Shown piece by piece: positions 7,617 through 39,054 of a DNA stretch of 59,787 nucleotides (position 1 is the stretch's first letter; each line of letters starts with the position of its first letter). This DNA is from a virus. A model generated the notes under the pieces. The model worked only from the letters and a program-made list of their open reading frames with translations. It was not told the origin of the DNA and did not search any database. The stretch is taken from IMG/VR virus record IMGVR_UViG_3300031521_000069, positions 1 through 59,787 of that record. One strand, written 5' to 3'. The position numbers were made by a program, and so were the translations under genes.

Positions 7617-8384
7617 TTATTGACCAAGTTCTGTTTGTGAAATTACTCGACCATCCCAAAATAAACGATCATTTGCAAAATAAGCATCCGGCATCCAACA
7701 ATAACCCTTTTCACCCCAGGTAATATCCCAGGAATTGCGAACCCGAAAATAACCGGGCTTATAGGCATTGGTTAGCATGGCATGACCGCCGATCTGACGT
7801 TCGTAAAAACGAGGCATCGGAACAATACCAGTCTTGGCAACCTTTGCGGACTCAAAACTACTATATAAAGACACGCCAAAAACAACAGGATAACCCGCCG
7901 CAATCGCGTGACGCATAAGTTCTGGAGTATCTTTGCCAGCGGCTATTGTGGTTGCCTGTAATACCTGCCACTTCGTTGCCCTTTCAATGATATTTGATGG
8001 CGGCAGTTTGTAATAGCTGTCGGAAGCAAGGCCATAGGGGTAATCCGTTTCGGGAACCATTCCAAATTCTTTTGCAGCCTTAATCATATCATCGAGCGTT
8101 GCTCCCTCGTCGACATTCAAGGTTCCTGCAATATGGCGGGTAACGGTTGCGAGAAATAATGGTGAAAAATATTGCTTTGCACCGCCTTCGGAAAAAACTT
8201 GGGATTCAAAAGCACCCGAACCGGCAAAAGCAAAACAAGAGCCGAAACTACCCTGGTTTCGCGGCGGCAAAAATTCATTTTGAATATCACACGTATCCGG
8301 GATCGGCATTTGGGGGAGGCGCGAAGAACACAAAGGGTGATAGGCGGTTTTTTTACAACGCCTCAAATTACATTTATGGTTCAT
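7617..8384 (-). CDS. papain-like (C1A) cysteine protease
   Basis: 255 residues containing all C1A landmarks: oxyanion Gln and nucleophile in NQGSFGSCFAF (Q44, C50), catalytic His in GGHAML (H201) and Asn in RNSWDITWGEKGYCW (N217), matching the NSWGxxWGxxGY motif. There is no propeptide and no obvious signal peptide; an N-terminal Cys-rich segment of about 30 residues precedes the protease. Targets are unknown. Papain-family enzymes are rare in phages, so it may cleave a host or competing-phage protein or act in a virion. The start overlaps the upstream gene's stop region with GGAG 8 bases before. Confidence 0.85.
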   Translation of the reverse strand: MNHKCNLRRCKKTAYHPLCSSRLPQMPIPDTCDIQNEFLPPRNQGSFGSCFAFAGSGAFESQVFSEGGAKQYFSPLFLATVTRHIAGTLNVDEGATLDDMIKAAKEFGMVPETDYPYGLASDSYYKLPPSNIIERATKWQVLQATTIAAGKDTPELMRHAIAAGYPVVFGVSLYSSFESAKVAKTGIVPMPRFYERQIGGHAMLTNAYKPGYFRVRNSWDITWGEKGYCWMPDAYFANDRLFWDGRVISQTELGQ

Positions 8385-9117: not shown

Positions 9118-10113
9118 ATGAAAAGATTCGAATATTTGGATTCTCTAAGAGGGATAGCTGCAATGTTGGTGGTGGTATTTCACATTTGGGAAAAGAATAC
9201 CGACCACAACAATGTTCTGGCAACGTTCCCGTTCAACGTATTGATTGCCGGACATGGTTGTGTCTGCCTGTTTTTCATCTTGTCTGGGTTCGTGCTCAGT
9301 TACAAATTCATCGGTGAAGTTAATCAGGCCGATCCGCTGATCAAGGCAATTATCAAGCGCCCATTCCGTTTGGGTGGGGTGGTTATTTTTGTTTCGTTGT
9401 TTGCTTTGATCATAACCGGCAAGTTGTTTTCTATTCCAACCGACATTTTGATTCAGATCATTATTCAAAACCCCTTGACCTTTGCTGTGTACGACATTCC
9501 TCCACTTTGGACAATCGGGATCGAGTTGCAAGGATCGATCATGGTTTTTGTTGCCATGATCTTTATCAATGGGTTGCCGGTAGTTCAACGTATATTAGTT
9601 TTGACTTGTTGCATCTTTGTTTTTCGGAACAGCTTCTTCGATGCTTTTTTCTTTGGAATGATTATTGCCGATATTATCAAAAACAATTTGGTAAGTCCAT
9701 CTAAGGCATTGACTATCGTATTATTGGCTTTATTACCAGTTGGTTTGTGGTTGTTTGCTCATAACCGAGAAAGTAACCAGATAGGATTTTGGGTCGGTGA
9801 ATCTCTGTATTCGATGATCGGGGCGGCTATCGTATTCTTGTTTGTTTGCTTCTGCCCGGCAACCCACAAGATACTAAGCATCAAGCCCCTGATATTCTTA
9901 GGAAAGATTTCATTCAGCCTGTATGTATCGCACTGGCTAATAGTGGTAACTTATTCAAGTTTTTTCAAGGACTTGATGATTGGTTTTCCGTTTCTCTTAC
10001 AATCGGTTTTGCTCGTTGGGGTGTCGGTGCTGGTTGGCTGGTTACTAACCATTGCCATCGACAACCCGGCCGTCAAATTCGCCGGAGTAGTCGCAAGCAA
10101 GTTTAAATCATGA
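9118..10113 (+). CDS. acyltransferase 3 family membrane protein (O-antigen/polysaccharide acetylase)
   Basis: 331 residues. N-terminal FEYLDSLRGIAAMLVVVFH is the family signature, with catalytic His in VVFHIW; FFILSGFVLSY is the second motif. About ten hydrophobic segments follow. Such OafA/YrhL-type enzymes O-acylate surface sugars and in phages commonly alter the receptor (lysogenic or pseudolysogenic conversion). The gene stands alone on the + strand between two - strand operons with its own promoter, as expected for a moron. Its end overlaps by 6 bp the convergent stop at 10108; no terminator is evident between them. Confidence 0.9.
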   Translation: MKRFEYLDSLRGIAAMLVVVFHIWEKNTDHNNVLATFPFNVLIAGHGCVCLFFILSGFVLSYKFIGEVNQADPLIKAIIKRPFRLGGVVIFVSLFALIITGKLFSIPTDILIQIIIQNPLTFAVYDIPPLWTIGIELQGSIMVFVAMIFINGLPVVQRILVLTCCIFVFRNSFFDAFFFGMIIADIIKNNLVSPSKALTIVLLALLPVGLWLFAHNRESNQIGFWVGESLYSMIGAAIVFLFVCFCPATHKILSIKPLIFLGKISFSLYVSHWLIVVTYSSFFKDLMIGFPFLLQSVLLVGVSVLVGWLLTIAIDNPAVKFAGVVASKFKS

Positions 10114-25100: not shown

Positions 25101-25331
25101 TTATGCAATCAGCTTCGCATAATTAGCGAGAGCATCGGTTTTTTCTTTTACATAACCGGGGTCGAATTCCCCGCCGCTAAACGCCCGTTCGAATTCGGTA
25201 TTGATGCTCTTAATAAGATCAGCAACGCGCTTCCGATGTACCGCAGCATTTTTCAAATCTTCGGGCGTCATTTTGGCGTCCAATTTTTTCTCTACTTTGT
25301 CGCCCTTCTTGGCAACCCGGATAATCTTCAT
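25101..25331 (-). CDS. small late protein with MKIIRV leader
   Basis: 76 residues beginning MKIIRVAKKGDKVEKK, then a charged helical body. AGGAGAC precedes the ATG. Member of the leader-sharing group described in the findings. No other family. Confidence 0.7.
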   Translation of the reverse strand: MKIIRVAKKGDKVEKKLDAKMTPEDLKNAAVHRKRVADLIKSINTEFERAFSGGEFDPGYVKEKTDALANYAKLIA

Positions 25332-25341
25332 TTATTGTCTC

Positions 25342-25521
25342 CTATTTATAACATGGACATTCGTTTTGTGCTTCGCTATTATCATCACCATACGGGCAGG
25401 GCGCACCCTTAACAACCTGAATTTCTTTGCACCCGGAAACACATTGCTCAGTGTCAGCACGAAAACACTTACAAAGATTTTTCATAAAACTATCTGAAAC
25501 CTTTACTTTAATTACTTTCAT
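25342..25521 (-). CDS. small Cys-rich late protein with MKVIKVK leader
   Basis: 59 residues from ATG 25521 with AGAGGTG 5 bases before. It begins MKVIKVKVSDSF, then has eight Cys: CKC, CVSGC, CPYG, CPC. It probably binds metal or is disulfide-bonded. Leader and position (directly after the sheath gene) put it in the same group as its neighbours. Confidence 0.8.
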   Translation of the reverse strand: MKVIKVKVSDSFMKNLCKCFRADTEQCVSGCKEIQVVKGAPCPYGDDNSEAQNECPCYK

Positions 25522-25536
25522 GTCAACACCTCTTTA

Positions 25537-27075
25537 TCAGGAATAAGCTTCGACGTTAATATTGATCGAATGAACCGCCCCGTCAAGATTTGCAATGATT
25601 GTTGACGGAGGCCCGATTCTGGAGGCCCGATCCGATACCGTCATGTTCTGAAGCGGCGTAAACGAAATCGTATAGGCCGGGTCGATAGAAACCTTGTTAT
25701 CGTTGCTGGCGAGTTGAATCGGTCTTGCCGCAAAAGTGCCGTTTAAAACGTAACGGCGGCAAATGCTATCCTCGGCATTGAAAATAAGGTTAACGCCGTT
25801 TGTGGTATACGGAACCTTATTATTTTGCAGGAAAACATTGTATACAGCAACCTGAAGCTCTTCCTTGAAGTTGTCCAAGTTAATCCGGTCGTCAATAAAC
25901 CAAGATGTGTTTGAATCAACGCCTTCACGAGTGGTACGACTGTTGTTGCCAACCAGCGTAAACGTATTGATACGCTTGCTCGTCAATACCGCCAATTCCG
26001 ATTCGGTAACAGGTACGGTCGGGATACCGTACAGGTCTTTGAATTTCATCGTAATTGTGGAATTCGAAGCCGAATAGTTGACGCTCAGGGCAATCGCCAG
26101 AATCGCCATTTCCGGATAATAATACGGGTTGTTGTGATAAACAACAAACGTCCGAGTATAACCGGCAGTCTTACAAAGATACCCGATATCGGTTGTTGAG
26201 CCGCTATCATGGGCAAATGCCGAATTTACGCACAGACCAATGATTCCGGTTCTTGCTTCACAATATGCGGCGGCAAGAGTTTGGTCGCTACTGTCGCGAT
26301 AAGTTTTGTCGAGGACTTTTCCGTAAACAAACTTTCCGGAAGCGGAAGCGGCCTCATCGATATACGCCAGTTCACTGGCAATATCGCCCGGCAAATAGCC
26401 CGGAACAGTATAGGCGGTTTGCACGTCATTGGTATCGATGTATTGACCACCTAAGAAGCCCGAACCGGAAACATCAACGCCGGTCGCGGCGGCACTCAAA
26501 TAAGATACTGTCGAAGAAGCCCCAGCAATTCCCGAAGTGATCCTCATCGTCCCGGCTGCCCCGGCAACAACAGTACAAAGGGTATACCCTCCGGTTGCGA
26601 CGGCGCGAAGTTTGGTTTGAATTACGGTTGCGACTGCCGCCATTGTAGCACAGGAATGGAAATCAAGAGCGGTAATCGATTGTTCCGAACCGTCAATTGA
26701 AATTTTGAAACTACCGGTCGTAACCGCCGTCCAAGTTGCAATGGTTTGTTGGACTGAACCGAGTTCAAGATAACCGGCAACAGCAGCCTCAAAAATTCGG
26801 GCAATTGCCATCGTCTTGGCTCGCGGAGATTGAGAAAAGAATGCTGTCGCCGCCTTGTAAGCTTCGGAGGATGTGGCGAAACCGTCGGCGGTGACAGCAC
26901 TCAAAGATGAATAGAAACGAATGCGGTTCGAATCTTGGTCAAAAGTTGCGTTGGGGGTACAGAAACACGGAATAGAAAAATCCGTTGTGGTTTCTGCCTG
27001 GGGTTTGGTGATGTTGACGGTAACATCAATATCCCTGGGCAGCGATTTAGAGCTGGAAACAATAATGGAACTCAT
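25537..27075 (-). CDS. tail sheath protein (DUF3383-like)
   Basis: 512 residues. The N-terminus IDVTVNITKPQAETTTDF and C-terminal sheath region (YTISFTPLQNMTVSDRASRIG) resemble DUF3383 contractile sheath proteins. Residues about 110-205 are an inserted domain (TWTAVTTGSFKISIDG, ITALDFHSC, TGGYTLCTVV, RITSG) that recurs in the cement protein at 31821-32711. The sheath surrounds the tube and contracts on infection. Confidence 0.85.
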   Translation of the reverse strand: MSSIIVSSSKSLPRDIDVTVNITKPQAETTTDFSIPCFCTPNATFDQDSNRIRFYSSLSAVTADGFATSSEAYKAATAFFSQSPRAKTMAIARIFEAAVAGYLELGSVQQTIATWTAVTTGSFKISIDGSEQSITALDFHSCATMAAVATVIQTKLRAVATGGYTLCTVVAGAAGTMRITSGIAGASSTVSYLSAAATGVDVSGSGFLGGQYIDTNDVQTAYTVPGYLPGDIASELAYIDEAASASGKFVYGKVLDKTYRDSSDQTLAAAYCEARTGIIGLCVNSAFAHDSGSTTDIGYLCKTAGYTRTFVVYHNNPYYYPEMAILAIALSVNYSASNSTITMKFKDLYGIPTVPVTESELAVLTSKRINTFTLVGNNSRTTREGVDSNTSWFIDDRINLDNFKEELQVAVYNVFLQNNKVPYTTNGVNLIFNAEDSICRRYVLNGTFAARPIQLASNDNKVSIDPAYTISFTPLQNMTVSDRASRIGPPSTIIANLDGAVHSININVEAYS

Positions 27076-27093
27076 ATTTTATTTCTCCTTAAA

Positions 27094-27309
27094 TTATTTG
27101 ATTGATGCAATTACTTGTCTCAAACGATACTCTTGATCCTCGAGAACGTCTTTACTGACCGAACCGTGCTGTTTTCCAAGTTGATAAACAAGTTTCAAGT
27201 TATCAGCAATTTTCCCCAATGAAGTAAGATTATTGTTATCAATACTTCCGTCGACTTTCTTCTGCTTCGCATCCGCTTTCTTCATCTTCAATGTACGGAG
27301 AATTTTCAT
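27094..27309 (-). CDS. small basic protein, MKILRT leader
   Basis: 71 residues from ATG 27309: MKILRTLKMKKADAKQKK then a helical body. It is weakly similar to the leader group. Upstream ribosome-binding sequence AATAAGG. Function unknown. Confidence 0.6.
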   Translation of the reverse strand: MKILRTLKMKKADAKQKKVDGSIDNNNLTSLGKIADNLKLVYQLGKQHGSVSKDVLEDQEYRLRQVIASIK

Positions 27310-27313
27310 AACC

Positions 27314-27514
27314 TTATTCCTTATCGCTTTTTTTGATTTTCTTTTCCACTTCTTCAACCGCCGATACTTCACAATGTGCAACAGCATCGCGCAACGGTTT
27401 ACGACTCAAATATTCAGCTTGCCATACTTCGTTGGCAACCGTTGCCGATTCTTTGGGCTTAATTTCAAGTCCACAAACTTGAACCGTTTGTTTGGAGTTG
27501 TTGATAATTTTCAT
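27314..27514 (-). CDS. small protein, beta-rich
   Basis: 66 residues: MKIINNSKQTVQVCGLEIKP then a Lys/Glu-rich end. The style (short beta domain with KPKES) resembles small capsid-decoration or internal proteins. The MKII start is a partial leader match. Confidence 0.6.
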   Translation of the reverse strand: MKIINNSKQTVQVCGLEIKPKESATVANEVWQAEYLSRKPLRDAVAHCEVSAVEEVEKKIKKSDKE

Positions 27515-27523
27515 TTTTATACC

Positions 27524-27775
27524 CTATTTGATTTCCAATTCCGACAACATTCCTTGAGCTGCATCAAGATGATTGAGAGAAGAAATAATGGCATCTACAT
27601 TTTCTCTCTGATAAATCGAATAATTTGCTCGCCGAAAAGTGTCTTTCATTTGCTTGAACTGTCTTACAGCCGGAATCAAAGATTCGCCAATTTTTTTTGC
27701 CTGAATAACAAGCGGTTTAATAATATTATCTCCGGTCATATCCTCATCACCAATTTTTACTTTAATCAATTTCAT
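27524..27775 (-). CDS. small late protein with MKLIKVKIGDED leader
   Basis: 83 residues. The leader MKLIKVKIGDEDM is followed by a helical body with no known domain. It lies directly before the tail-terminator candidate in the head-tail gene block. Confidence 0.7.
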   Translation of the reverse strand: MKLIKVKIGDEDMTGDNIIKPLVIQAKKIGESLIPAVRQFKQMKDTFRRANYSIYQRENVDAIISSLNHLDAAQGMLSELEIK

Positions 27776-27787
27776 TTCTTATTTTCC

Positions 27788-28291
27788 TTACGCTTGATTA
27801 AATTCTGTTGTTATTTGAATTCGATTGAAATAATCCGCATCAAAAACCTCGCTCTGTACATGATAAAAAGAGCATTTTAACTCCTGTCTTTCTTCAAATT
27901 TCGCGTCAATAAATGGCGCACTTGTATTATTAATCGTCCCTTTATCAGATAACCCGAAACCGTAAATCCCCATCCCATAAAAAAACTTAATGGTTTGAAA
28001 ACTTGCTTGCAGGTTTGCCAAAGTACTCCGGGCATCGCCACCCAGTGCCTCAACAACGTAAGTCAGCAAACCCAGTCCTCTGACTGTTTCCGTCGCCCCG
28101 GTACTCGTGCCCGCAAAAGTAACAATGTCGTTTGCAACGGCAGTGTAATCCATTGTGATAATGCTGCAATACGGTTTGTTTGGTTGCGGGGTATCGGCAC
28201 GGCGCAGAATGGTCGAGCGACCGGTAATCGCCTCCACGTAATCGGCAAAATATTTGTTTGCCAAATCGTATTTTGTAAAATCCTTGCTCAC
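27788..28291 (-). CDS. tail terminator/neck protein candidate
   Basis: 167 residues, with DTPQPNKPYCSIITMDY near the N-terminus and FKVxS.-type beta strands; similar in style to the 'neck terminator gp12-like' (LIC_12616) family. Context between head-tail connectors and sheath supports a tail-terminator role. Confidence 0.6.
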   Translation of the reverse strand: MSKDFTKYDLANKYFADYVEAITGRSTILRRADTPQPNKPYCSIITMDYTAVANDIVTFAGTSTGATETVRGLGLLTYVVEALGGDARSTLANLQASFQTIKFFYGMGIYGFGLSDKGTINNTSAPFIDAKFEERQELKCSFYHVQSEVFDADYFNRIQITTEFNQA

Positions 28292-28680
28292 GCCGTTTCC
28301 TCGTTATCGCGGTCAAGATATTTAACCGCTAAATATTTCCGGTACATTCCGTCCGCCGATCTATTCGCCTCAATATATACACGATAAACATCATCGTCAT
28401 ATTTAAAAAATGTTTGAACTTGCGTCGCATCCTCTGCCGCACTATCTATAAAATACAGCTTCTTATTCCGTGTGTAAACCGTAATTGATTTCTTCTTAAT
28501 TAACCCCTCGTCCAGAAGTTGAAGATCATCAGTAGAAGTTGGCAGAATAACCCCGACAAACCAGTAAGCGGAACCCTTGGTTTTTTGATAAATATGATCA
28601 ACAACAGACCCCGTTTCATCGTAAGCCCAAATCTTACGAAGAAATTGGTCTAACACTGGAATCATATTTATCGGAAACAT
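28288..28680 (-). CDS. head-tail connector-region protein
   Basis: 130 residues, overlapping the next gene by ATGA. Beta-rich with SITVYTRNKKLYF and VYRVYIEANRSADG. No family recognised with confidence; gene order suggests a neck or stopper component. Confidence 0.55.
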   Translation of the reverse strand: MFPINMIPVLDQFLRKIWAYDETGSVVDHIYQKTKGSAYWFVGVILPTSTDDLQLLDEGLIKKKSITVYTRNKKLYFIDSAAEDATQVQTFFKYDDDVYRVYIEANRSADGMYRKYLAVKYLDRDNEETA

Positions 28681-28683
28681 ATT

Positions 28684-29193
28684 TTATTTCTCGCTCTTTT
28701 TTCTTATCGCGAACGTAACGGTTTGCCTCATTAGCCCGGTATCAATTAAGGGGTTCGCGCTTTTCTTTTTTGCAATCGTTGCCGGGGCGTTCGGGGGTTC
28801 ACTAAGCTCGGTAATTTCAGTTTTCATAACCGCAACCGCTTTTAAGCCCATCAACTCGGCTAAATCCTCTAACTTCAATTTTCCCCGGTTAACAGCTTCT
28901 AAGCCTTTCTTAATCGGTTCACTCAACTCCCTGCTTGCGCGTTTACCGCCAATATCCATAAATCGGCGCGGCGGTATATGTTCTAACCCTTGGGCATCTT
29001 TCGTTCCGTAATTGTTATAAAAAGCCACGTCTATTACTGCAACGCCATTTGGGTAAGTTGCAGCGGTTGCCTTGCCCTTTGGAAAACCGATAACAACTTC
29101 CGGCAAATCTTTCAACCGGGCAATTAATTCCTTAATGGCGGTTGGCTTTTTCTCTTTGATTTTTGCTTTGATACCGGCCATTAGGATAATCAT
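28684..29193 (-). CDS. head-tail completion protein (HK97 gp10/virion morphogenesis-like)
   Basis: 169 residues (start at 29193, or 29181 if MAGIKAK is the true start). The C-terminal NPLIDTGLMRQTVTFAIR is the hallmark of gp10/gpG-like tail completion proteins (PLxDTGxLxxSI). It overlaps the TM-containing small gene. Confidence 0.8.
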   Translation of the reverse strand: MIILMAGIKAKIKEKKPTAIKELIARLKDLPEVVIGFPKGKATAATYPNGVAVIDVAFYNNYGTKDAQGLEHIPPRRFMDIGGKRASRELSEPIKKGLEAVNRGKLKLEDLAELMGLKAVAVMKTEITELSEPPNAPATIAKKKSANPLIDTGLMRQTVTFAIRKKSEK

Positions 29194-29383
29194 GCTCCCG
29201 AATTTTACGGCTTAACTCAACTTGGTTTGCCAGCTCTTTTTCTTTGCGTTCCCGGAACAATATCTTCAGGGCAATTATAACCCCGACGGCTTTGACCAAA
29301 AAGGGAAACAAGCTCTTTTTTTGAGCAAGCGGAATAAAGCTAAGATCGAGTTCGTCGGTTTTCTTAACTTTTAATGTCCTCAT
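29132..29383 (-). CDS. small membrane protein with MRTLKVKKTDELD leader
   Basis: 83 residues: leader, then one hydrophobic helix (SLFPFLVKAVGVIIALKILF), then a basic tail. It overlaps the upstream gene by ATGA and the downstream gene by 62 bases. The only leader-group member with a clear TM helix. Confidence 0.65.
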   Translation of the reverse strand: MRTLKVKKTDELDLSFIPLAQKKSLFPFLVKAVGVIIALKILFRERKEKELANQVELSRKIREHDYPNGRYQSKNQREKANRH

Positions 29384-29835
29384 AATACAATTGCCTCAAC
29401 CGGATATTGGGTATTTGCAACTTGATTTGCAATCAACGGGCCGCGACCCATTTTATTCCGAATACGAATGAACTCCTGTCCGAACCGGGTAGAGGCCAAA
29501 AATTTATCATCATTCCGATCATACATCGGCATCTCCAGAGTTTTGGACAAATCACCAACTGTCGCACTCGTCATAATCCCCAACGCTTGTGACATAGCGG
29601 CGGAGCCCGGAGCAAGCTCCGCCGACAATTGGGTATCAACAAACAAAGATAATAAATGTGCTGTCAGATAGTAAGCAGCTTTTCTATAATATTTTCCGAA
29701 CGTACCCTCGGTAACTTCTACCGAAACATCGTCTTCGAGAATGGCCGTAATCCGCGAAGTTGCGAATACTGCCGAATCATCAAAGATCGGTGCAAAGTAA
29801 GCTCGGAAATCCGCTTCTGACAGCACGGTTGCCAT
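29380..29835 (-). CDS. head-tail adaptor (DUF4054-like)
   Basis: 151 residues: LSEADFRAYFAPIFDDSAVF, KYYRKAAYYLTAHLLSLF and FLASTRFGQEFIRIRNKMG fit DUF4054 adaptors (YxxAxxLLxAH, then STxYGxxF). Expected to bind the portal side of the neck. Confidence 0.8.
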   Translation of the reverse strand: MATVLSEADFRAYFAPIFDDSAVFATSRITAILEDDVSVEVTEGTFGKYYRKAAYYLTAHLLSLFVDTQLSAELAPGSAAMSQALGIMTSATVGDLSKTLEMPMYDRNDDKFLASTRFGQEFIRIRNKMGRGPLIANQVANTQYPVEAIVL

Positions 29836-29839
29836 ATCG

Positions 29840-30610
29840 TTATTCCTTATCGTCCTGCTGGGCTTTAAATACCCAGGAGATCAAACGTTTATCGGTTGTA
29901 TCGGCGTCAAACTCGATGTCAAGTTTCTTCGCCAAAACTTCAAGCTGTTCCCGATCCATTGCGCCGAGTTGTTTCTGGGTAAAATACTCGACTTCGGATT
30001 CTTTTACCTTTTCTTCAACATTCAGCTCATTTGCCTCTTCCGATGTAACCCGTTCAATTTTGGTTTCGGGAACCTTGGCATTTTCTCCGGTAACAAGCGT
30101 CGACGCTGCCGCCAAATTACCGCCGGGTATCTTTAGCGCACCTTCGTGCATCCCGGCGCTTAATTCGGCGATATAACGCTGTTTGTATTGATTGGCCTTG
30201 TCCATGTCGATGCTGTTGCCAAAATTATTGGCACGAAGCAGATTAAACTTCGGATAACCATCCCGGTCAAGATAGGGCGCAATTTCGGGATTCTGGTCAC
30301 CACCGACACTTCTGATTTGCAGCATCAAGTTTTTGTAATTGGAATAACCAATTTCGCGGGATACGGAAGACTTATCGACCGCACTATCAATCTGGCGATT
30401 ATTCAAAATAACCAGAACGCCGTTTGCGATAAGCTGCTGAAAAAACGGATGCGACTGAATTTTTTCTTCAAACACAGAAGAATCAACTTCAGTAATGGCG
30501 TTGTCGGATTCGATATTTACTCGAGCGCCGAGGCCTTTTGTACCACCCTGCTTTGTCATCAAATTGATAAAGTAAGGGGTCGGACTTGTATTTTGGATCA
30601 AAATTTTCAT
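29840..30610 (-). CDS. head protein with LEM/SAP-like C-terminus
   Basis: 256 residues, N-terminus MKILIQNTSPTPYFINLM. Middle is polar; residues 210-250 (MDREQLEVLAKKLDIEFDADTTDKRLISWVF) resemble HeH/LEM/SAP helix-extended-helix motifs that can bind DNA. Placed between capsid and adaptor; probably a head component. N-terminal strand may be a distant relative of the leader. Confidence 0.55.
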   Translation of the reverse strand: MKILIQNTSPTPYFINLMTKQGGTKGLGARVNIESDNAITEVDSSVFEEKIQSHPFFQQLIANGVLVILNNRQIDSAVDKSSVSREIGYSNYKNLMLQIRSVGGDQNPEIAPYLDRDGYPKFNLLRANNFGNSIDMDKANQYKQRYIAELSAGMHEGALKIPGGNLAAASTLVTGENAKVPETKIERVTSEEANELNVEEKVKESEVEYFTQKQLGAMDREQLEVLAKKLDIEFDADTTDKRLISWVFKAQQDDKE

Positions 30611-30677
30611 AATAAAAACATCCTCTACTTTTCTAAAATTCGAGGACGGTATTTATCCGCCCTCGATTCGTTATAGA

Positions 30678-31799
30678 TTAGATACCTTCCATATGGGCAG
30701 CGGAGCGCGGATACCGAACAACGCAACCGGCGCTATAAGCATACCAGAGCAGAATGTAGGTAAACAAATTCTGCTGAACCGGCATACTCTGAGCTTCTTC
30801 AGGAATTTCAACGGCAATTTTGTCCTCTTTCTTCACATAAGCGGACATCTTGCCGGTGCCGTTATAACCGGCACCTTCGTATTCATTCACCGGAATGATA
30901 TCTTCCAGGCTCTTGAAATACGGGCTGTTTTCCAGAATATAGGTCATGATCGAAATATCGCGGTTTTCCAAACGGCGGTTGACCAGATAATTCCATTTGC
31001 TCGGGGAGAGCAGGAGCTTATTGGGCCGTTCGCGCATTTTGGAATTTACCCAGATCGTCATTGCGATACCGGAAACGTCGGCAAGAATTTCATCTGCCGT
31101 CTTGGATTCCCAATTCGTATCTCCATTTGCGCCGACGTCAACCACGCCGACCGGAATTAACGGGTTATTCAGGAAGCCGGGAACGCCAGCATCCGGCAAT
31201 CCATAGAATGCCTGGTCATTCAATGCTTCTTCAACGCCGCGAAGAGCAGCAGTCTGGCGAATCTGTTCCGGCGAATAACGGGCGCGGCCATTGCGCTGGG
31301 CAACAACAAAGCCCTGGAGTTCCTGAATGGTCCAAGTGGCACCAATCCCCCACATTACAACCGGGTATTTGATTTCCTTACCGCCGCCGTCTACAAACGG
31401 AACGTCTTTGCCGCCAGCATTGATTACTTTGGCCTTGGCGAAGAAGTCATAGACTTCGGACGTAATTTCTTTTACGCCAGCACCGCCCTGATTGATGATC
31501 GGGAAAACGTTACGGAAGGGGAGGATTTCATATTCCACTTCGTAAGCTTTTGCGGTCAGGAACTCGAGCGCACGGTTGAAAAACAGTGACTGATTTTCAA
31601 CGGCGTCGGTTGCGAGGTGCATACCGTCCGCTTTCAAAGAATGGGCCAGATAAATCCGGTCTTCATGCGTCAAATTGGCGTAAAAACTTGCCGCCGCATC
31701 AGCAACATGAATCTTGCTCATGCCGCCCATGCTGGTCACCGGCTGAACGCCGTTGCCCTTCGCATATTTGGCAGAATCTCCGATATAAGATACGTTCAT
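30678..31799 (-). CDS. major capsid protein (DUF2184-like, HK97 fold)
   Basis: 373 residues from ATG 31799, with GGAAAGGA 9 bases upstream; a second ATG at 31808 lies too close. Features: LPFRNVFPI, YPVVMWGIGATWTIQELQ, KLLLSPSKWNYLV, FTYILLWYAYSAGCVVRYP. The pattern fits DUF2184 capsid proteins, which share the HK97 fold also used by encapsulins. High expression is expected. Flanked by cement protein and DNA-binding-like head protein. Confidence 0.85.
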   Translation of the reverse strand: MNVSYIGDSAKYAKGNGVQPVTSMGGMSKIHVADAAASFYANLTHEDRIYLAHSLKADGMHLATDAVENQSLFFNRALEFLTAKAYEVEYEILPFRNVFPIINQGGAGVKEITSEVYDFFAKAKVINAGGKDVPFVDGGGKEIKYPVVMWGIGATWTIQELQGFVVAQRNGRARYSPEQIRQTAALRGVEEALNDQAFYGLPDAGVPGFLNNPLIPVGVVDVGANGDTNWESKTADEILADVSGIAMTIWVNSKMRERPNKLLLSPSKWNYLVNRRLENRDISIMTYILENSPYFKSLEDIIPVNEYEGAGYNGTGKMSAYVKKEDKIAVEIPEEAQSMPVQQNLFTYILLWYAYSAGCVVRYPRSAAHMEGI

Positions 31800-31820
31800 T
31801 TTATTCATTCCTTTCCTGTT

Positions 31821-32711
31821 TTAGCGGAGGCCTTTAACATCAATGATACCAACCTGACCAACGCTGTAAGTGCCGGTATAAATCGCCGACCCCAACTGCG
31901 TCCGACCCGAACCGCTCGCGGCGTAAATTTCGCCCGTAGCATCATCGAAATAAACACTACCGCCACCGGCAGTAGCTTCAAGGCAAAGTACCTTAATAAG
32001 ACCGTCCTGTCTGAAGGCACCAACATGTCCTTCGCGAACCGTAGTGGTCTTGGAGGCAGCACCGGCTCCACCTTCTTCGGTAATACTTCTCAGGGATACG
32101 CCCAAAATGGTCGCCGCAACAACAGCAGCGGTACCAACAACAGTCTGGAAACTATCCCAACCGAGCATCACGTTAATTTCAATGCCGCTTCCACCGGTAA
32201 CAACGCCGGGATAAGTAACACTCGAAGTCGTGCCGGTCGTGCCGGAAGTAATCTTGAACTGTTCGGTGGCATCATCCCAAACAACCGTGGCCAGCGTATA
32301 ACCGCCAGTACCGATTGCCCGAACCGCCGTCTGAATTACACTCGCAATCCCATCGAGATCGGTTGCGGAATGAAAATCAAGGGCAGTAATATTGTGAGCA
32401 ACGCCGTTAATCTTGATACTGAATTCACCGGTGGTAATCGCAGTCCAGGTCGAAAGAACCTGAATCGGAAAACCAGTGCCGATCAGATAACCGGCAGAAG
32501 CCGCATGAATGCTGGTCGTGCCCAAACGAGCGCGAGGCGGCGGGCCGTAGCTGGAACCGAGACTAACAACACGTCCAAAAGGAATGTCGCCATTTTCGGC
32601 AATAAACGAAAAATCGCGGGTCGGATTGGAATCCGCATTCGCGCCCGGCAGACCGTCGGACAACACGCGATCATACTGCTTCTGTACATAAGAGGGAACC
32701 GCGACACTCAT
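31821..32711 (-). CDS. capsid cement/decoration protein
   Basis: 296 residues. The N-terminus YVQKQYDRVLSDGLPGA and C-terminal decorated beta domain (KVLCLEATAGGGSVYFDD) are similar to structural cement protein Gp24/DUF2190-type products next to the capsid gene. Residues about 80-180 are the same domain inserted in the sheath protein (TWTAITTGEFSIKING, ITALDFHSA, TGGYTLATVV). Overlaps the protease/scaffold gene by ATG/TAA. Confidence 0.75.
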   Translation of the reverse strand: MSVAVPSYVQKQYDRVLSDGLPGANADSNPTRDFSFIAENGDIPFGRVVSLGSSYGPPPRARLGTTSIHAASAGYLIGTGFPIQVLSTWTAITTGEFSIKINGVAHNITALDFHSATDLDGIASVIQTAVRAIGTGGYTLATVVWDDATEQFKITSGTTGTTSSVTYPGVVTGGSGIEINVMLGWDSFQTVVGTAAVVAATILGVSLRSITEEGGAGAASKTTTVREGHVGAFRQDGLIKVLCLEATAGGGSVYFDDATGEIYAASGSGRTQLGSAIYTGTYSVGQVGIIDVKGLR

Positions 32712-33550
32712 TATTTGCCTCCATTGAGTTTCAACAGCCGAGCTTCTTTCGCTACCTGAACAAAACTTTTCTTCGAAGTATTTTCCGGAGCTTCATCGTT
32801 TGCCAGAATCTGCATGTCATGTTCCCATGAATCAATCTTTTTCTGGCTGGTCTTTACGGCAGCGTTGAACATGCTGTCAAGAGCTTGGGGATGCAGGGAT
32901 TTGGTAACAACGCCGGGCATCTGCTTTTTGATTACAGCACGTTTTACCGCATCGCCGTCGAATTTACCGTCGCGCCCGATATAGCTATCGACCGCAAAAG
33001 TCGAACCGAGAATTTTGGAAGCAACGGCGGTCAAACTCAACATCTTGCCGACCGCAGTTTCCGCGCTATCGCCTTTTTTCTGCATGTCAAGGAACCTCTT
33101 GCAATAATCATATGCAGCCTGATCCATCTTGCCGACTTTACCTTCTTCGAGTTCAACCTCGAAAATAGTATCATCTTCGTCGACACCTTCTTTCATTTCC
33201 TCGGCTTCTTCTTCCGGAGTTTCTTCAGCGGATTCCTCTTTGGTTTCTGCTTCATCTTCTTCGGTTACTTCGCCGTCATTGTCTTCTTCGCCGTCTTCAA
33301 GATCGTCATCATCGACGCCGGGAATTTCGACCTTCTTATCGTCGTCTTCACCGTCTTCCTGAATTTTGACATCCTTTTCATCCATTTCTTCAACTTCCGC
33401 TCCTTCGCCTTCCAACTTCTTAGCGACTTCGGACGAAATTTCGGAAACGTTTTCTTCGTCTTCGTCAGTCGCCAAAAAATAGCGATAACGAGCCGTCGGC
33501 TTCTGGGCTTTATCAAGAGCCTTCGCCTGTGCTTTTCCAAACTTTCTCAT
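32711..33550 (-). CDS. nested scaffold protein (internal start)
   Basis: Within the protease gene an in-frame ATG (about codon 200; MRKFGKAQAKALDKAQ) has AAAGGA 8-10 bases upstream. Initiation here would yield a 279-residue scaffold without protease, like Nu3 within lambda C. Confidence 0.6.
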   Translation of the reverse strand: MRKFGKAQAKALDKAQKPTARYRYFLATDEDEENVSEISSEVAKKLEGEGAEVEEMDEKDVKIQEDGEDDDKKVEIPGVDDDDLEDGEEDNDGEVTEEDEAETKEESAEETPEEEAEEMKEGVDEDDTIFEVELEEGKVGKMDQAAYDYCKRFLDMQKKGDSAETAVGKMLSLTAVASKILGSTFAVDSYIGRDGKFDGDAVKRAVIKKQMPGVVTKSLHPQALDSMFNAAVKTSQKKIDSWEHDMQILANDEAPENTSKKSFVQVAKEARLLKLNGGK

Positions 33551-34147
33551 TGTTTGTTTTCCTTTTACTTTATTCTCAGTGCTGTCGCACACTCGACAAC
33601 TTGAACCGCAACGTCCATTTTGAACCAGAGCAACATGGTTCGGCATCAAATAAAACTGAACAGCTCGATACTTCTGACCGTCCTTCGAACCTTCCTGACT
33701 GCGATACGCCGTCTCATAACCGGCAGAAAGTTCATCGTAATCGTCAGATTCTTGAAGTTTATCAATCGCCCATTGATCGTGGATCATGATGTCGTTTATG
33801 ATATATGTTTCACCATCGACAACTTGAACACGAGCATTTGAACCGGTTGTTCCAACAATAACTTTTTTCACCGTCTCCGGCGTTACTTCATTTTCTTCCG
33901 GATGTTCCATCGTGATCGGAATGTTATTGAAATAATTGCAGCATTCCTTGAGCGCTTCCGGCGGACGGTAAACGGTAATCAATTCACCGTCAGCAACGAC
34001 GGAACCGTCTTCACATTGGACATTGGAATATTGGAGTAAACCAGATTTGGCGATTCGACAGTCCGGTAGGAGTAAGTATCCGGCAGGGTGAATCCTGCGT
34101 TTACTTCCCTGGGTCTTGATGAAATCGACAATCTTTAAAGTCTTCAA
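32711..34147 (-). CDS. prohead protease fused to acidic scaffold (DUF2213-like)
   Basis: 478 residues. The N-terminal 190 residues are a DUF2213/U35-like serine protease: His in PITMEHPEE (about H82), Ser in YDELSAGYET (about S141), and NHVALVQNGRCG. A linker leads to a strongly acidic D/E segment (about 225-330) and an alpha-helical C-terminus, as expected for a scaffold that is digested during maturation. Starts MKTLKIVDFIK. A promoter lies just upstream. Confidence 0.82.
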   Translation of the reverse strand: MKTLKIVDFIKTQGSKRRIHPAGYLLLPDCRIAKSGLLQYSNVQCEDGSVVADGELITVYRPPEALKECCNYFNNIPITMEHPEENEVTPETVKKVIVGTTGSNARVQVVDGETYIINDIMIHDQWAIDKLQESDDYDELSAGYETAYRSQEGSKDGQKYRAVQFYLMPNHVALVQNGRCGSSCRVCDSTENKVKGKQTMRKFGKAQAKALDKAQKPTARYRYFLATDEDEENVSEISSEVAKKLEGEGAEVEEMDEKDVKIQEDGEDDDKKVEIPGVDDDDLEDGEEDNDGEVTEEDEAETKEESAEETPEEEAEEMKEGVDEDDTIFEVELEEGKVGKMDQAAYDYCKRFLDMQKKGDSAETAVGKMLSLTAVASKILGSTFAVDSYIGRDGKFDGDAVKRAVIKKQMPGVVTKSLHPQALDSMFNAAVKTSQKKIDSWEHDMQILANDEAPENTSKKSFVQVAKEARLLKLNGGK

Positions 34148-34171
34148 TCAGTTTTCTCCTACTTGTTATAG

Positions 34172-34200
34172 ATAATAATTGATTTCGCTCAATAATGCAA
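34172..34200 (-). promoter_or_regulatory. promoter of the protease/scaffold-capsid genes
   Basis: - strand TTGCAT, 17 bp, TATTAT; TSS near 34165, about 20 bases before the ATG at 34147, which has AGGAG. Confidence 0.65.
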
Positions 34201-34232
34201 GCAATATTAATTCACCTGCATTTTGCCTATAT

Positions 34233-34439
34233 TTATTTGTTGATGATCGCAAGAATAGCTTGCTGATATTCTTTATATTCTTGAGGCGTCAATTCCGTTC
34301 CTTCGAGAGCTTTAAACGAATTATAGTCGCCCCGGATATGTTTGCGCCATGCCTGATCACGTTTGAATTTTTCGGCATCTTTTTTTGCCATTTGTTGAAT
34401 GCGTTCTTCGTCACCGATTTTTACTTTGATAATTTTCAT
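34233..34439 (-). CDS. small late protein with MKIIKVKIGDEE leader
   Basis: 68 residues from ATG 34439, preceded by a very strong GAGGAGG. Leader MKIIKVKIGDEERIQ followed by a charged helical body. Chosen over an upstream TTG because of the ribosome-binding site and the leader. Confidence 0.78.
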   Translation of the reverse strand: MKIIKVKIGDEERIQQMAKKDAEKFKRDQAWRKHIRGDYNSFKALEGTELTPQEYKEYQQAILAIINK

Positions 34440-34452
34440 TATCGCCTCCTCG

Positions 34453-34758
34453 TTATTTATATGTTTCGAAAATATTTTGAGCAATTTGTTTGATATATTT
34501 ATGATAGGCACCCATTGCCATCATAAAATTCAAATCGGAGCGCGACTTGGTCATATCGTAAACTTTCTTTTCCAAAACACTTTTTGGACCCATAAAGGTC
34601 ACTTCCCATTTCTGAGGAGCTCGATTATTAGCAAATCTCGTTTCTGATTTTGGATCATCAAGAATAACCAAACGAACAGAATAACCGCCTTCGCCATATG
34701 AAGCGCTGTCGTTTAACTCCCAATTATCGTCTTTGCATTTCACTTTGATAATTTTCAT
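34453..34758 (-). CDS. small late protein with MKIIKVKCKDD leader
   Basis: 101 residues from ATG 34758 (leader MKIIKVKCKDDNWELND); AGAGGG lies about 10 bases upstream. The middle is beta-like (YSVRLVILDD, WEVTFMGP), C-terminus helical. Unknown function; close neighbours share the leader. Confidence 0.78.
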   Translation of the reverse strand: MKIIKVKCKDDNWELNDSASYGEGGYSVRLVILDDPKSETRFANNRAPQKWEVTFMGPKSVLEKKVYDMTKSRSDLNFMMAMGAYHKYIKQIAQNIFETYK

Positions 34759-34759
34759 T

Positions 34760-35098
34760 TTACCAATTCCCTCTTTCATGATAAAACCAGTTACGCCAGT
34801 CCGCTATAGCTTCACCCAAAATATTTAAATCGTGTCCCAGATTGACAGAAACATTATTTGCTTTATAAAATTGATTGGCTGAGTTTTCCAACAACTTAAA
34901 ACCGGCAATCACTGCATTTTCTTTTTTACCGTCAATCAATTTAATCAACTTCTCAATCGAGATTTCATTTTTCTTAACAAAATCTTTGACCTCAAAATCA
35001 TCATATTTTTTCAGGGTATTAATAGCGGCAATAACTTTGGAAGAATATTCTTTTCCAAGATCATTATCGTCACCAATCTTTACTTTCAAAATTCTCAT
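34760..35098 (-). CDS. small late protein with MRILKVKIGDDND leader
   Basis: 112 residues: leader MRILKVKIGDDNDLGKE, then a helical body with repeated K/E/N. It overlaps the previous gene by ATGA. Confidence 0.78.
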   Translation of the reverse strand: MRILKVKIGDDNDLGKEYSSKVIAAINTLKKYDDFEVKDFVKKNEISIEKLIKLIDGKKENAVIAGFKLLENSANQFYKANNVSVNLGHDLNILGEAIADWRNWFYHERGNW

Positions 35099-35307
35099 TT
35101 TGTTATCCGTTGTTTTGTAATATTAGGATTTTTTCTTTTACCGGCGTTAAAAGCAGGTCTATTATTAATTGACTGATAAGACTGAATAAATTTGAGATCT
35201 TGTTTTGAAAGAACCTCGCCGGTTTTCAACCTTTGAATAAGATCTTCATAATCTTGCTTCATTTTGTCTTTTATATCGTCGGTTTTTCTAATCTTAATAA
35301 TTTTCAT
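35095..35307 (-). CDS. small late protein with MKIIKIRKTDD leader
   Basis: 70 residues: MKIIKIRKTDDIKDK, helical middle, basic C-terminus rich in K, R and N (NAGKRKNPNITKQRITK) that could contact DNA. Confidence 0.78.
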   Translation of the reverse strand: MKIIKIRKTDDIKDKMKQDYEDLIQRLKTGEVLSKQDLKFIQSYQSINNRPAFNAGKRKNPNITKQRITK

Positions 35308-35319
35308 TTTATTTAACCT

Positions 35320-36417
35320 TTACAATGTATCGAAGTCCGGAATTACGGGATCAGCAAAACATCGGCAGAGAATCGGTTTTCCCGGCGGACCGTCGGGAGG
35401 CGGTTGACGAAACGGTTTTCCGTCCGGCGCAATCGGCGGCTTCGCCATTTTTTGAAACAAAAAATACTGTCCTTCCCGATCCCAATGATTTCCATGATAT
35501 TTGCTATTCTTATCGACATCCGGGTATAAACCATTCGGATTTCCAGCAACTCTCCGGTCTCTAGAATTACGCCAACAATACCCCTGCACCCCACAATTCT
35601 GCATCCTGAGATGGTTGAAATCAGAAAATGCTTTTGCCGTCTGATCTCGGGCAATCAATTTCGCTTTTGTCTTCGTCGCCTTAGTTAAATCCATTAACGC
35701 TTGGATCATCCCGCCTTCCGGCACCTTAACCCCGTTCACATTATCTTTAACCAAGGTCTGTATATCATCAAAGTATTTTTTCGGAATACTAGAAATCAAA
35801 TTCACGTTTTCTTTTACCTGAGCATCAAAAGCATCCTTCAATCCCTTTTCGGTCATAATGGTCATCAAATCAATTCCGGCAGCTTTTTTAAATTGAGCAT
35901 AAAACTTTCGTTTGCTCTCTTTGTAAGTTTGCAGGGTTATATCTTTTGCGGTCGCCTCGTAAGCGTAGAGTAGGTCTTGATATTTACGCCGTAACTTTTC
36001 CAGCCGGTGATTAAATTTTTCGAGCAGGGTTTGATCAGCTTCAAATTTTCCGATCAATACTCCATATGGCCGGACGGATTGTTCCGTGATCAACCAATTT
36101 TCGCCCTCGTGTATTGCACCCTTAATTTTACCCGTGGAAATGTCTCGGATAACCTGTTTTTTAAGCACCCCAACCATCCGGGCAACCTCGTATGCGGTCA
36201 AATAACGAACGGCGTCTGTGGCTTGTTTAAACGTTAATTTTGCGTTTTCCTGAACTTGAGCTTTGGAAAGCTTCTTTTGCTGTTCCTCGCTCATCTTCAG
36301 AATCAGGGGCTTAAGCTGGAGTTCATAATCGCGAGCAAGACGACGAGCCAATTCAAGTAGCTTCGCCCGGTACTGGGCGATTAAAGTTGGATATACTTGA
36401 ATTGGCTTGAACTTCAT
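35320..36417 (-). CDS. minor head/head morphogenesis protein (Mu gpF/SPP1 gp7-like)
   Basis: 365 residues. A long helical N-terminus and a C-terminal domain with KLIARDQTAKAFSDFNHLRMQNCG, YCWRNSRDRRV and PGKPILCRCFADP, the signature of Mu gpF-like head morphogenesis proteins (RDxTxK, then RH, then CRC). It associates with the portal. It interrupts the series of leader proteins. Confidence 0.85.
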   Translation of the reverse strand: MKFKPIQVYPTLIAQYRAKLLELARRLARDYELQLKPLILKMSEEQQKKLSKAQVQENAKLTFKQATDAVRYLTAYEVARMVGVLKKQVIRDISTGKIKGAIHEGENWLITEQSVRPYGVLIGKFEADQTLLEKFNHRLEKLRRKYQDLLYAYEATAKDITLQTYKESKRKFYAQFKKAAGIDLMTIMTEKGLKDAFDAQVKENVNLISSIPKKYFDDIQTLVKDNVNGVKVPEGGMIQALMDLTKATKTKAKLIARDQTAKAFSDFNHLRMQNCGVQGYCWRNSRDRRVAGNPNGLYPDVDKNSKYHGNHWDREGQYFLFQKMAKPPIAPDGKPFRQPPPDGPPGKPILCRCFADPVIPDFDTL

Positions 36418-36803
36418 TAATTCACTTGAAGAATTTTTACAGCATTATTTATTTTCTTCAATCTGTCCTCTGCAAATTTTATTATTTTTTCATTGCCTGT
36501 ATCTTTTGCTTTGGCTAAAGCAAGTTGAAAAGCAATAGAAGAATTACCTAATTTAATAATTCCATCAGTATAATTCCTTACCGCTTCATCCAAATGCAAA
36601 ACCTTATCATCACCGACATGTTTCGGCAGACTCTTGTAAGCCGACTTCGGCGTCTTGCTCGCAAATTCTTTGGCGACCGCCGGTTTCTTTGCAAACAAAT
36701 AACCCTGTTGTGCTTTGCTCTCAAACACGTCCTGCTTCTTTACTGTTTTATTGTGAGTCTTTTCAGGGACAGCATCCGAACACTTCACTTTGATAATTTT
36801 CAT
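36417..36803 (-). CDS. late protein with MKIIKVKCSDA leader
   Basis: 128 residues: leader MKIIKVKCSDAVPEKTHNK, a Lys/Ala-rich middle and a helical C-terminus (FAEDRLKKINNAVKILQ). Overlaps the gpF-like ATG. Highly basic (Lys-rich), consistent with a DNA-associated internal protein; no family recognised. Confidence 0.78.
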   Translation of the reverse strand: MKIIKVKCSDAVPEKTHNKTVKKQDVFESKAQQGYLFAKKPAVAKEFASKTPKSAYKSLPKHVGDDKVLHLDEAVRNYTDGIIKLGNSSIAFQLALAKAKDTGNEKIIKFAEDRLKKINNAVKILQVN

Positions 36804-36817
36804 TTCTTCACCTTTCC

Positions 36818-37102
36818 TTAACGATTAACCTTCTCCATTGCCGCCCAGATTTCACCCGAAATAGATTTTGCACCGTTGAGTTTGCTCGAGACCTTCCCAC
36901 TATCATCAATCGAAATATAACCATTACGATCATCGAGGCCATAAATGCGAACATTGGTCGAATTAGCCCATATTTTGCAAAGCCTTCCAATTTTTTCATT
37001 ATTGGTTTCCGCGACGAGGGCGTTAATAAAATTTTGCGCAACTGCCTTTCTTTCGTCAATAGTCATTTTATCGTCACCGACCCAGACCTTAATTATTTTC
37101 AT
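36818..37102 (-). CDS. late protein with MKIIKVWVGDDK leader
   Basis: 94 residues: leader MKIIKVWVGDDKMTIDE, then a mixed domain with NVRIYGLDDRNGYISID. Its 5' end overlaps the portal 3' end by 14 bases, and the DNA coding for KIIKV is present twice in a row at that junction. Confidence 0.78.
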   Translation of the reverse strand: MKIIKVWVGDDKMTIDERKAVAQNFINALVAETNNEKIGRLCKIWANSTNVRIYGLDDRNGYISIDDSGKVSSKLNGAKSISGEIWAAMEKVNR

Positions 37103-38687
37103 TTTTTACCTTAATTATTTTCTTGGCTTTATTTATAGAATCTGTTTCTTCCCATTCCGGCACCACATCTTCTTCCTGTGCGGCCTTCAAATTTTTAAGC
37201 GTTTTGTTTGGACGCCCCAGATAATTATCTTTATTTGCCTCTTCGGCGGCAACTTCCGGGTCTACCTGATAAACCCCATCACGTGCTCTTTCAAGTTCGT
37301 CGGCAACATCCATCGCATCCACCAAATCAACTTCATTCGCTCCGGTTTCTTTTTCCAGCCGTTCAATTTCTCCTTTCGTCAGGTTGTTAAAAATCTTCCG
37401 TTCCATAACTTCTTTCCGAGCAATCTTCAGATCGATAATTTTATTGTCCATGGACGCAGTAAGCATATCCAAGAACTGTCTATCGGTTTCCATTTTCTTT
37501 TCCGGCGATACTCTTTCAAGGGCTGGGAAGACAACGTCAAAATCAGCCGGGAGATTTTCGTTAAATAAGGACGGAACAATCCAGCGCCGGTACAGGCTCA
37601 TCAAATGGGGTTTAGCTCCGGAAGACTGATATTCTTCAATCATATCGTAATAATTGTTCATGTCGCCTTCGCCAGTAGCATCCAAACCCTTGGCACTAGT
37701 GCCAACCAGCTTTGTAACCGGATACCCTGTGGCGGCGCTTACAGTAGTATAAAACCGCTCTAAAATTTGATCCAAACCGCTAAAGGCCCCGACCTCAAAG
37801 TTCTCCAACTTCTCTTTAGTATCAATAATTGCCATGTTATTATTGGACATCTGATAGTTCATCAGATTAACCCGCTTCAAAAATGCAGCGGTGGCTTCGT
37901 CGTCCGCAACAATACCCAGCAAATCATCGACACTCAATACCGGTACGGAAGCCCGGAACAAAAGTGAGGCAATAGCACTATCAACAATACCAGCGTTCCT
38001 GACCGCCTCATAGACGTTGGATAAAATAGATTGACCCCAATAAAGATTACGCTGCCTTTCATACCAGGGCAAAAACTCACCGCCGAATCTTTCTACCCGA
38101 GAATGATGGACAATAGCTCCGGTTAAAAATAATTCTTCATCCTTAACCCCGGTCTGTTTTAAAGCAACTATACCGGCGGAGCCAATTGTATAAGTAATCG
38201 GCATCAGAAAATCGTCAGCCAACGGGTTCATGAAATTAATACGAGCGGCATAAGCTTGCCAAGCGTCAAACATCCGCAAACAAAGAAGGGAATTATGCGG
38301 CAAGTAATCGGGAATAGGATTCCTCATTGCTCCCCAGGTCGCATTAGTCAGCGCGACAATAAGGGAGCCGCCAAAAATACGTTCTGATTTCAAAGCGGAT
38401 AAGAGTAATTCTTTTGTTCCCAAATGTTCATCATATTTTTTGAGAAGATTAATCTTATCCGGTTCCCAAGACGGACAATAGATATCCCAGCCTCGCTTTA
38501 ATGATTCTTTAGGGAGCAAGTCAACAATACGCCGCCCCAGCCATCCTTCATAAATATCGACCAGCTCTTGATAACCAAAAAAGTTTTGAGGAGAGAACAC
38601 AGATTGTTGGAGACGGTCGGTTCCGCTGTTCATGCTCGTAACGAGATTGACCAGCGAATCGACCTGTTTCGTTTTGGTTATCTTCAT
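37089..38687 (-). CDS. portal protein (DUF1073-like)
   Basis: 532 residues. FFGYQELVDIYEGWLGRRIVDLLPKESLKRGWDI, SERIFGGSLIVAL, and TGYPVTKLVGTSAKGLDATGEGDMNNYYD match DUF1073 portals. The protein begins MKITKTKQVDS, a variant of the leader, and its last residues are AKKIIKVKNENN. It forms the dodecameric DNA gate of the head. It is 13 bases downstream of the ferritin-like gene. Confidence 0.87.
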   Translation of the reverse strand: MKITKTKQVDSLVNLVTSMNSGTDRLQQSVFSPQNFFGYQELVDIYEGWLGRRIVDLLPKESLKRGWDIYCPSWEPDKINLLKKYDEHLGTKELLLSALKSERIFGGSLIVALTNATWGAMRNPIPDYLPHNSLLCLRMFDAWQAYAARINFMNPLADDFLMPITYTIGSAGIVALKQTGVKDEELFLTGAIVHHSRVERFGGEFLPWYERQRNLYWGQSILSNVYEAVRNAGIVDSAIASLLFRASVPVLSVDDLLGIVADDEATAAFLKRVNLMNYQMSNNNMAIIDTKEKLENFEVGAFSGLDQILERFYTTVSAATGYPVTKLVGTSAKGLDATGEGDMNNYYDMIEEYQSSGAKPHLMSLYRRWIVPSLFNENLPADFDVVFPALERVSPEKKMETDRQFLDMLTASMDNKIIDLKIARKEVMERKIFNNLTKGEIERLEKETGANEVDLVDAMDVADELERARDGVYQVDPEVAAEEANKDNYLGRPNKTLKNLKAAQEEDVVPEWEETDSINKAKKIIKVKNENN

Positions 38688-38700
38688 TCGGATTCCTGCT

Positions 38701-39054
38701 TTATTTGGAGAGTTTCAGAATCCGTTTGGTATCAGCCGCTTTTGCCGCCTTGGAGCCGGAAGCCAAAATCAATTTAGCTTCTTCCATTCCCCGCTCGCTA
38801 AGCGAACAATCTGCTCCATCATTCAACAAAGCAATCGCGGCCCGGAATTCGCCAACATGAACAAGCTCTTCTTCGGCAATCGAATTGAGCAAGGCAGCGA
38901 TTTTTTCGTTGCGAATTGATGTAGCAAGTTGGGAATACAGATTTGCGGCCTCAAGTTCTGCGGCCAACATTTCACGCAATGCCCGGATAAGTTCTTGGTC
39001 GGTAAGTTTCCGGTCAAGATCAAGTCCGGAAAAAGAATCTGCGAATTTTGCCAT
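38701..39054 (-). CDS. encapsulated-ferritin-like (EncFtn/rubrerythrin-type) protein
   Basis: 117 residues. Two helices carry LAAELEAANLYSQLATSI and SIAEEELVHVGEF. The residues E33, Y40, E63 and H66 have the spacing (7, 23, 3) of EncFtn E32, Y39, E62 and H65, which form the ferroxidase centre at the subunit interface of encapsulin ferritins. E35 matches entry-site E34, whereas the E31 and W38 positions are Ala32 and Leu39. The C-terminal ~35 residues are a tail ending ADTKRILKLSK. It has its own promoter and is the first gene of the portal/capsid operon. Iron oxidation is inferred from residues, not shown. Confidence 0.78.
   Translation of the reverse strand: MAKFADSFSGLDLDRKLTDQELIRALREMLAAELEAANLYSQLATSIRNEKIAALLNSIAEEELVHVGEFRAAIALLNDGADCSLSERGMEEAKLILASGSKAAKAADTKRILKLSK

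Follow-up and report, generated by a model that had tools for sequence, protein, structure and literature searches.

Introduction

Why should ten small proteins, encoded among the structural genes of one phage, begin with nearly identical residues? The question is raised by a 59.8-kb virus sequence, the whole of which is referred to here as the window and which, going by its head and tail genes, belongs to a contractile-tailed phage. Its late operon lies on the - strand and includes genes for Terminase_3, Phage_portal_3, a MuF-type head protein, a DUF2213 protease, a cement protein, a PF09950 capsid protein, and neck, terminator and sheath proteins. Ten small open reading frames are interspersed among these structural genes, and the first 11 residues of their products are near-identical. 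Judging from sequence alone, we estimate a chance of roughly one in two that this leader is a capsid-targeting tag, the functional counterpart of the one carried by the internal proteins of T4.

The late operon and its leader genes

The ten open reading frames listed in an earlier note on this DNA are all present, on the - strand and with ATG starts (Table 1). Their neighbours are the portal, MuF, protease, DUF4054, terminator and sheath genes, and they are set among these with gaps of at most 15 bp or small overlaps, the exception being 85 bp ahead of the protease gene. The gene for leader protein 1 starts within the end of the portal gene. Six of the leader genes are located between the portal and protease genes and four (25101, 25342, 27524 and 29132) among the neck, sheath and tube genes; two leader genes adjoin sheath or tube genes instead of head genes.

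Table 1. Coordinates and properties of the ten leader proteins and of the head proteins discussed in the text
Feature	Coordinates	Strand	Length (aa)	N-terminal residues	Leader coordinates	Leave-one-out score	Body pI	Remarks
Portal protein, Phage_portal_3	37089..38687	-						N-terminus is not a leader
Portal C-terminal KKIIKVK	37104..37124	-						DNA direct repeat of the 36818 gene start
Leader protein 1	36818..37102	-	94	MKIIKVWVGDD	37070-37102	25.6	9.2	0 of 2,452 null N-termini as good
Leader protein 2	36417..36803	-	128	MKIIKVKCSDA	36771-36803	25.8	9.8	
Head morphogenesis (MuF-type) protein	35320..36417	-						phrog_324
Leader protein 3	35095..35307	-	70	MKIIKIRKTDD	35275-35307	22.4	10.1	
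Leader protein 4	34760..35098	-	112	MRILKVKIGDD	35066-35098	28.4		
Leader protein 5	34453..34758	-	101	MKIIKVKCKDD	34726-34758	27.3		
Leader protein 6	34233..34439	-	68	MKIIKVKIGDE	34407-34439	32.9	9.4	
DUF2213 head maturation protease	32711..34147	-						Long acidic scaffold-like C-terminal region; body net charge -41
Major capsid protein, PF09950	30678..31808	-						~60-residue N-terminal extension relative to solved chain 8hdt_A
Leader protein 7	29132..29383	-	83	MRTLKVKKTDE	29351-29383	20.0	10.2	
Leader protein 8	27524..27775	-	83	MKLIKVKIGDE	27743-27775	28.3		
Leader protein 9	25342..25521	-	59	MKVIKVKVSDS	25489-25521	22.0	5.1	
Leader protein 10	25101..25331	-	76	MKIIRVAKKGDK	25296-25331	18.2		One-residue insertion

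Other proteins of the window also drew attention. Directly upstream of the portal gene, 38701-39054 (-) encodes a rubrerythrin/ferritin-like protein (Pfam Rubrerythrin, E 1.6e-6; weakly EncFtn-like), which lacks the leader and is possibly another virion cargo. The extra N-terminal residues of the capsid protein may be a propeptide. The cement-type protein (31821-32711, -) contains, at residues 70-201, a segment of the family DUF3383, to which the sheath-like protein 25537-27075 also belongs, and this suggests that the two share an inserted domain. Elsewhere in the window, one gene block encodes a papain-family cysteine protease (7617-8384, -) and a DNA/RNA non-specific endonuclease (Endonuclease_NS, 5918-6568, -) whose start resembles a signal peptide, and a membrane acyltransferase (Acyl_transf_3, 9118-10113, +) is a possible agent of surface modification.

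Reality and extent of the set

Exactly ten small late proteins, of 59-128 aa, carry the leader M-[KR]-[IVLT]-[IL]-[KR]-[VI]-[K]-x-[GST]-D-[DE]. Position 4 is I or L and position 6 is V or I in all ten, and D10 is invariant once leader protein 10 is aligned with its inserted residue. When residues 2-11 were shuffled within each protein, the summed similarity of the real leaders lay 23.8 s.d. above the mean of the shuffles. Profiles built from nine leaders and applied to the tenth gave scores of 18.2-32.9, and the best null N-terminus reached 13.0. The null set was made up of N-termini predicted in related and other viral loci, 2,452 in all, with genes in the comparison loci called by a simple script and no trained gene finder. 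No pair of bodies matches at E<0.1. The similarity is thus far above chance on proteins that are otherwise unrelated, as the earlier note had proposed, and its statement that nothing clear occurs outside 25.1-38.7 kb also stands, since no N-terminus of the window beyond those bounds scores above 0.

The weaker matches that the earlier note saw in three further proteins did not hold up. The portal N-terminus scores only 9.3, a value reached by 3 of the 2,452 null N-termini. Its D10 and N14 are part of the consensus of the portal family, where they are invariant. The scaffold-protease (-0.9 on the leader profile) and the protein encoded at 27094 (3.2) are not members. A 14-bp direct repeat, AAAATAATTAAGGT, spans the end of the portal gene and the start of the next gene (37089-37124, -), and its first copy provides an AAGG Shine-Dalgarno-like site. 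Because the C-terminal KKIIKVK of the portal protein lies inside this repeat, it was not counted as an independent leader.

We also considered the N-terminus of the major capsid protein (MNKMNVSYIGDS), since it contains IGDS, and rejected it at a score of -3.0, with 75 null N-termini as good. Capsid proteins of some distant relatives (L026, L024, L041 and L051) begin with MKxxxLR(D/N)GS, a leader-like strand-turn whose similarity is within the null range. One start of the form MKxIKLRDGS scores 10.4, again inside the null range, and these starts were set aside.

Bodies of the leader proteins

The boundary between leader and body is sharp, at residue 11-12, and the bodies beyond it are of different kinds: Cys-rich, mixed beta/alpha, helical and hydrophobic. 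Leader protein 9 has a Cys-rich body, the most acidic of the ten, and leader protein 7 a hydrophobic stretch as judged by eye. In searches with the bodies, Pfam yielded nothing strong and PHROG only weak hits, among them phrog_1375 at residues 15-61 of leader protein 2. This family was found neither in the relatives nor in the controls, and its absence from the relatives is therefore uninformative. Phage homologues were sought for two bodies and none were found. Structure models of the leader proteins were single-sequence and of low confidence. In the AlphaFold model of leader protein 4 (mean pLDDT 60), helices begin at residue 13 and residues 1-11 are unmodelled; the model of leader protein 5 has a mean pLDDT of 51. 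A fold search with one such low-confidence body model returned no useful match.

Selection on the peptide

Over codons 2-11 of the leaders, pS is 0.84 and pN 0.32 (pN/pS 0.38); for the bodies each value is about 0.72 (pN/pS 1.0). The synonymous sites of the leader are saturated and its amino acids are kept, so that selection acts at the level of the peptide and not at that of RNA or DNA. By this sequence comparison, the leader is an old, selected peptide, as opposed to a copied DNA cassette, an RNA element or a mere A-rich start. The reading of the leader as a peptide tag is thus supported by peptide-level selection, by the unrelated bodies and by confinement to the late head, neck and tail operon.

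Search for relatives

Among the 116 related loci examined, no shared-leader set was found apart from the window and one contig, L009, which is 100% identical to it and therefore adds no evolutionary information. The window has 11 similar N-termini (the ten leaders and the portal), and the other loci have at most two, on unrelated proteins. Viral and genome collections likewise gave no second phage with the leader beyond the identical contig. A scan of viral contigs with the leader pattern recovered that contig and, besides spurious matches, one further protein and a 140-aa protein that recurs in unrelated contigs; in genome contigs the matches were mostly single, longer bacterial proteins, several of which resemble glucosamine-6-phosphate deaminase by eye, and formed no set. 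Single-protein scans with the capsid and sheath proteins yielded no relatives, and TerL relatives reached about 45% identity at most, the leader set occurring in none. Shewanella MSO-5, Iodobacter phiPLPE and Vibrio pA2SJ1, distant phages of the Phage_portal_3/DUF2213/PF09950 type, are like the window in head gene order and families, but portal identity to phages of this type is only about 25-32%.

Proposed role of the leader

The leader proteins are small, mostly basic and late, and they have a short leader in common. This is the anatomy of the T4 internal proteins, and a capsid-targeting leader is therefore favoured. The median pI of the bodies is 9.1, against 6.0 for the other small proteins of the window, and eight of the ten lie above 8; against the capsid reading, this basic bias reaches only p=0.04, with one body acidic and one neutral. 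The two leader genes beside sheath or tube genes also tell against it, as do the lack of an (L/I)xE site of the T4 type near the leader and the dissimilarity to the T4 leader. We infer that the leader would be recognised by a scaffold or core component, and that encapsidation and ejection would follow. The leader would dock the ten accessory proteins onto a part of the assembling virion, the likeliest candidates being the prohead core and the acidic tail of the protease-scaffold. The docked proteins would end up inside the capsid and enter the host together with the DNA, and their bodies might there serve host takeover or anti-defence. The acidic tail is a plausible, though conjectural, receptor for a basic leader. 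The leader is of a low-complexity K/I/V type, and this limits what can be said about its partner. The conserved D10 could mean that the tag is not cleaved, or that the protease has a different P1 preference.

More tentatively, the locus may hold an independently evolved capsid-loading code of a non-T4 myovirus, in which a new 11-residue tag, not homologous to known capsid-targeting sequences, addresses ten injected cargoes, and the invariant Asp at its end perhaps marks a different cut by the prohead protease. The ip genes of T-even phages were recognised by their signal sequence. If the capsid-targeting reading is correct, leader-addressed cargo loading arose more than once, the present leader marks ten candidate injected proteins, possibly anti-defence or takeover factors, that lie beyond homology search, and a short tag becomes available with which proteins could be loaded into a further phage head.

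The leader might instead be a genuine docking tag for some other partner, such as the tail tube or neck, an assembly chaperone, a host protein or a membrane, with the proteins acting late in infection and not as cargo. Peptide-level selection and unrelated bodies require only some common partner, and the four genes among the neck, sheath and tube genes, together with the hydrophobic stretch in leader protein 7, would suit such a role. We regard this as unlikely, though a serious alternative, since six of the genes lie between the portal and protease genes, and the known short leaders shared by small basic phage proteins are capsid-targeting. A rather improbable explanation is that old duplications gave rise to all ten proteins as paralogues; their bodies would have diverged beyond recognition, and the N-terminus would have been kept for a task internal to each protein, for instance as a strand in self-assembly, and not as a sorting tag. 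The clustering and similar sizes of the genes agree with this, as does the age implied by synonymous saturation; the different kinds of body, their lack of any mutual match and the sharp boundary after the leader do not.

The expression-enhancing start offered as an alternative in the earlier note is disfavoured, and we consider it very improbable. The leader starts have a higher A content than those of other genes (0.44 vs 0.36, p=0.017) and are a little less folded (p=0.07), but the nucleotide-level conservation expected of such a start is not seen: amino acids are kept and codons are not, V6 and D10 are retained despite saturated synonymous sites, and an enhancer has no need for D at residue 10. 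Least probable of all is a nucleic-acid element, such as a recombination site or duplicated start cassette, spreading between genes. A single local direct repeat, where the portal and 36818 genes meet, speaks for it, but the leaders differ at nearly all synonymous sites and the upstream DNA is not shared.

Comparison with known packaging signals

Three known systems bear on the capsid-targeting reading. In SPN3US and phiKZ, N-terminal segments have been proposed to target inner head proteins, and the N-termini of gp53 and gp54 are identical (PMC5694885). Unlike the window leader, these propeptides are mostly longer than 100 residues, are cleaved at a known motif and belong to giant phages. According to the available text on P1 DarB, an N-terminal signal is sufficient to direct a protein into a myovirus capsid; the tested segment was 30 residues long and came from a single very large protein, and that text reports no leader common to many small proteins, in contrast to the window (PMC9024508).

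The closest parallel is T4, in which homology among the internal proteins is confined to an N-terminal leader that directs packaging (PMC12373910). IPI, IPII, IPIII and Alt resemble the window set in carrying a short N-terminal leader on several small, basic, unrelated accessory proteins (PMC9026906, PMC12373910). The first ten residues of IPIII are enough for incorporation; residues 4 and 7 of the T4 leader are needed for targeting and residues 8 and 10 for processing, and Asp at position 10 blocks processing and leaves targeting intact (PMC9026906). The window likewise has a leader within the short range of 10-19 residues, common to otherwise unrelated small proteins, and its candidate cargo bodies are small and basic, as in T4-type internal proteins (the ipII and ipIII bodies of T4, locus L164, have a pI of 9.6-9.7 and a GC of 0.41). 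The near-invariant D10 occupies the position of E10 in IPII and IPIII, the residue that precedes the cut in the T4 leader. The differences are also clear. The T4 leader MKTYQEFIAE scores -5.9 on the window profile, with 99 of 2,452 null N-termini as good. The T4-type (L/I)xE cleavage motif occurs within the first 40 residues of two of the ten proteins and at the leader end of none. In place of the gp20/21/22/23 head lineage, the window has Phage_portal_3, DUF2213 and PF09950 as portal, protease and capsid, and, unlike T4, it carries a set of ten such proteins in a 59.8-kb record. Since the sequence, the cleavage site and the head protein families all differ, the window leader is not a member of the T4 system; it would instead work like one.
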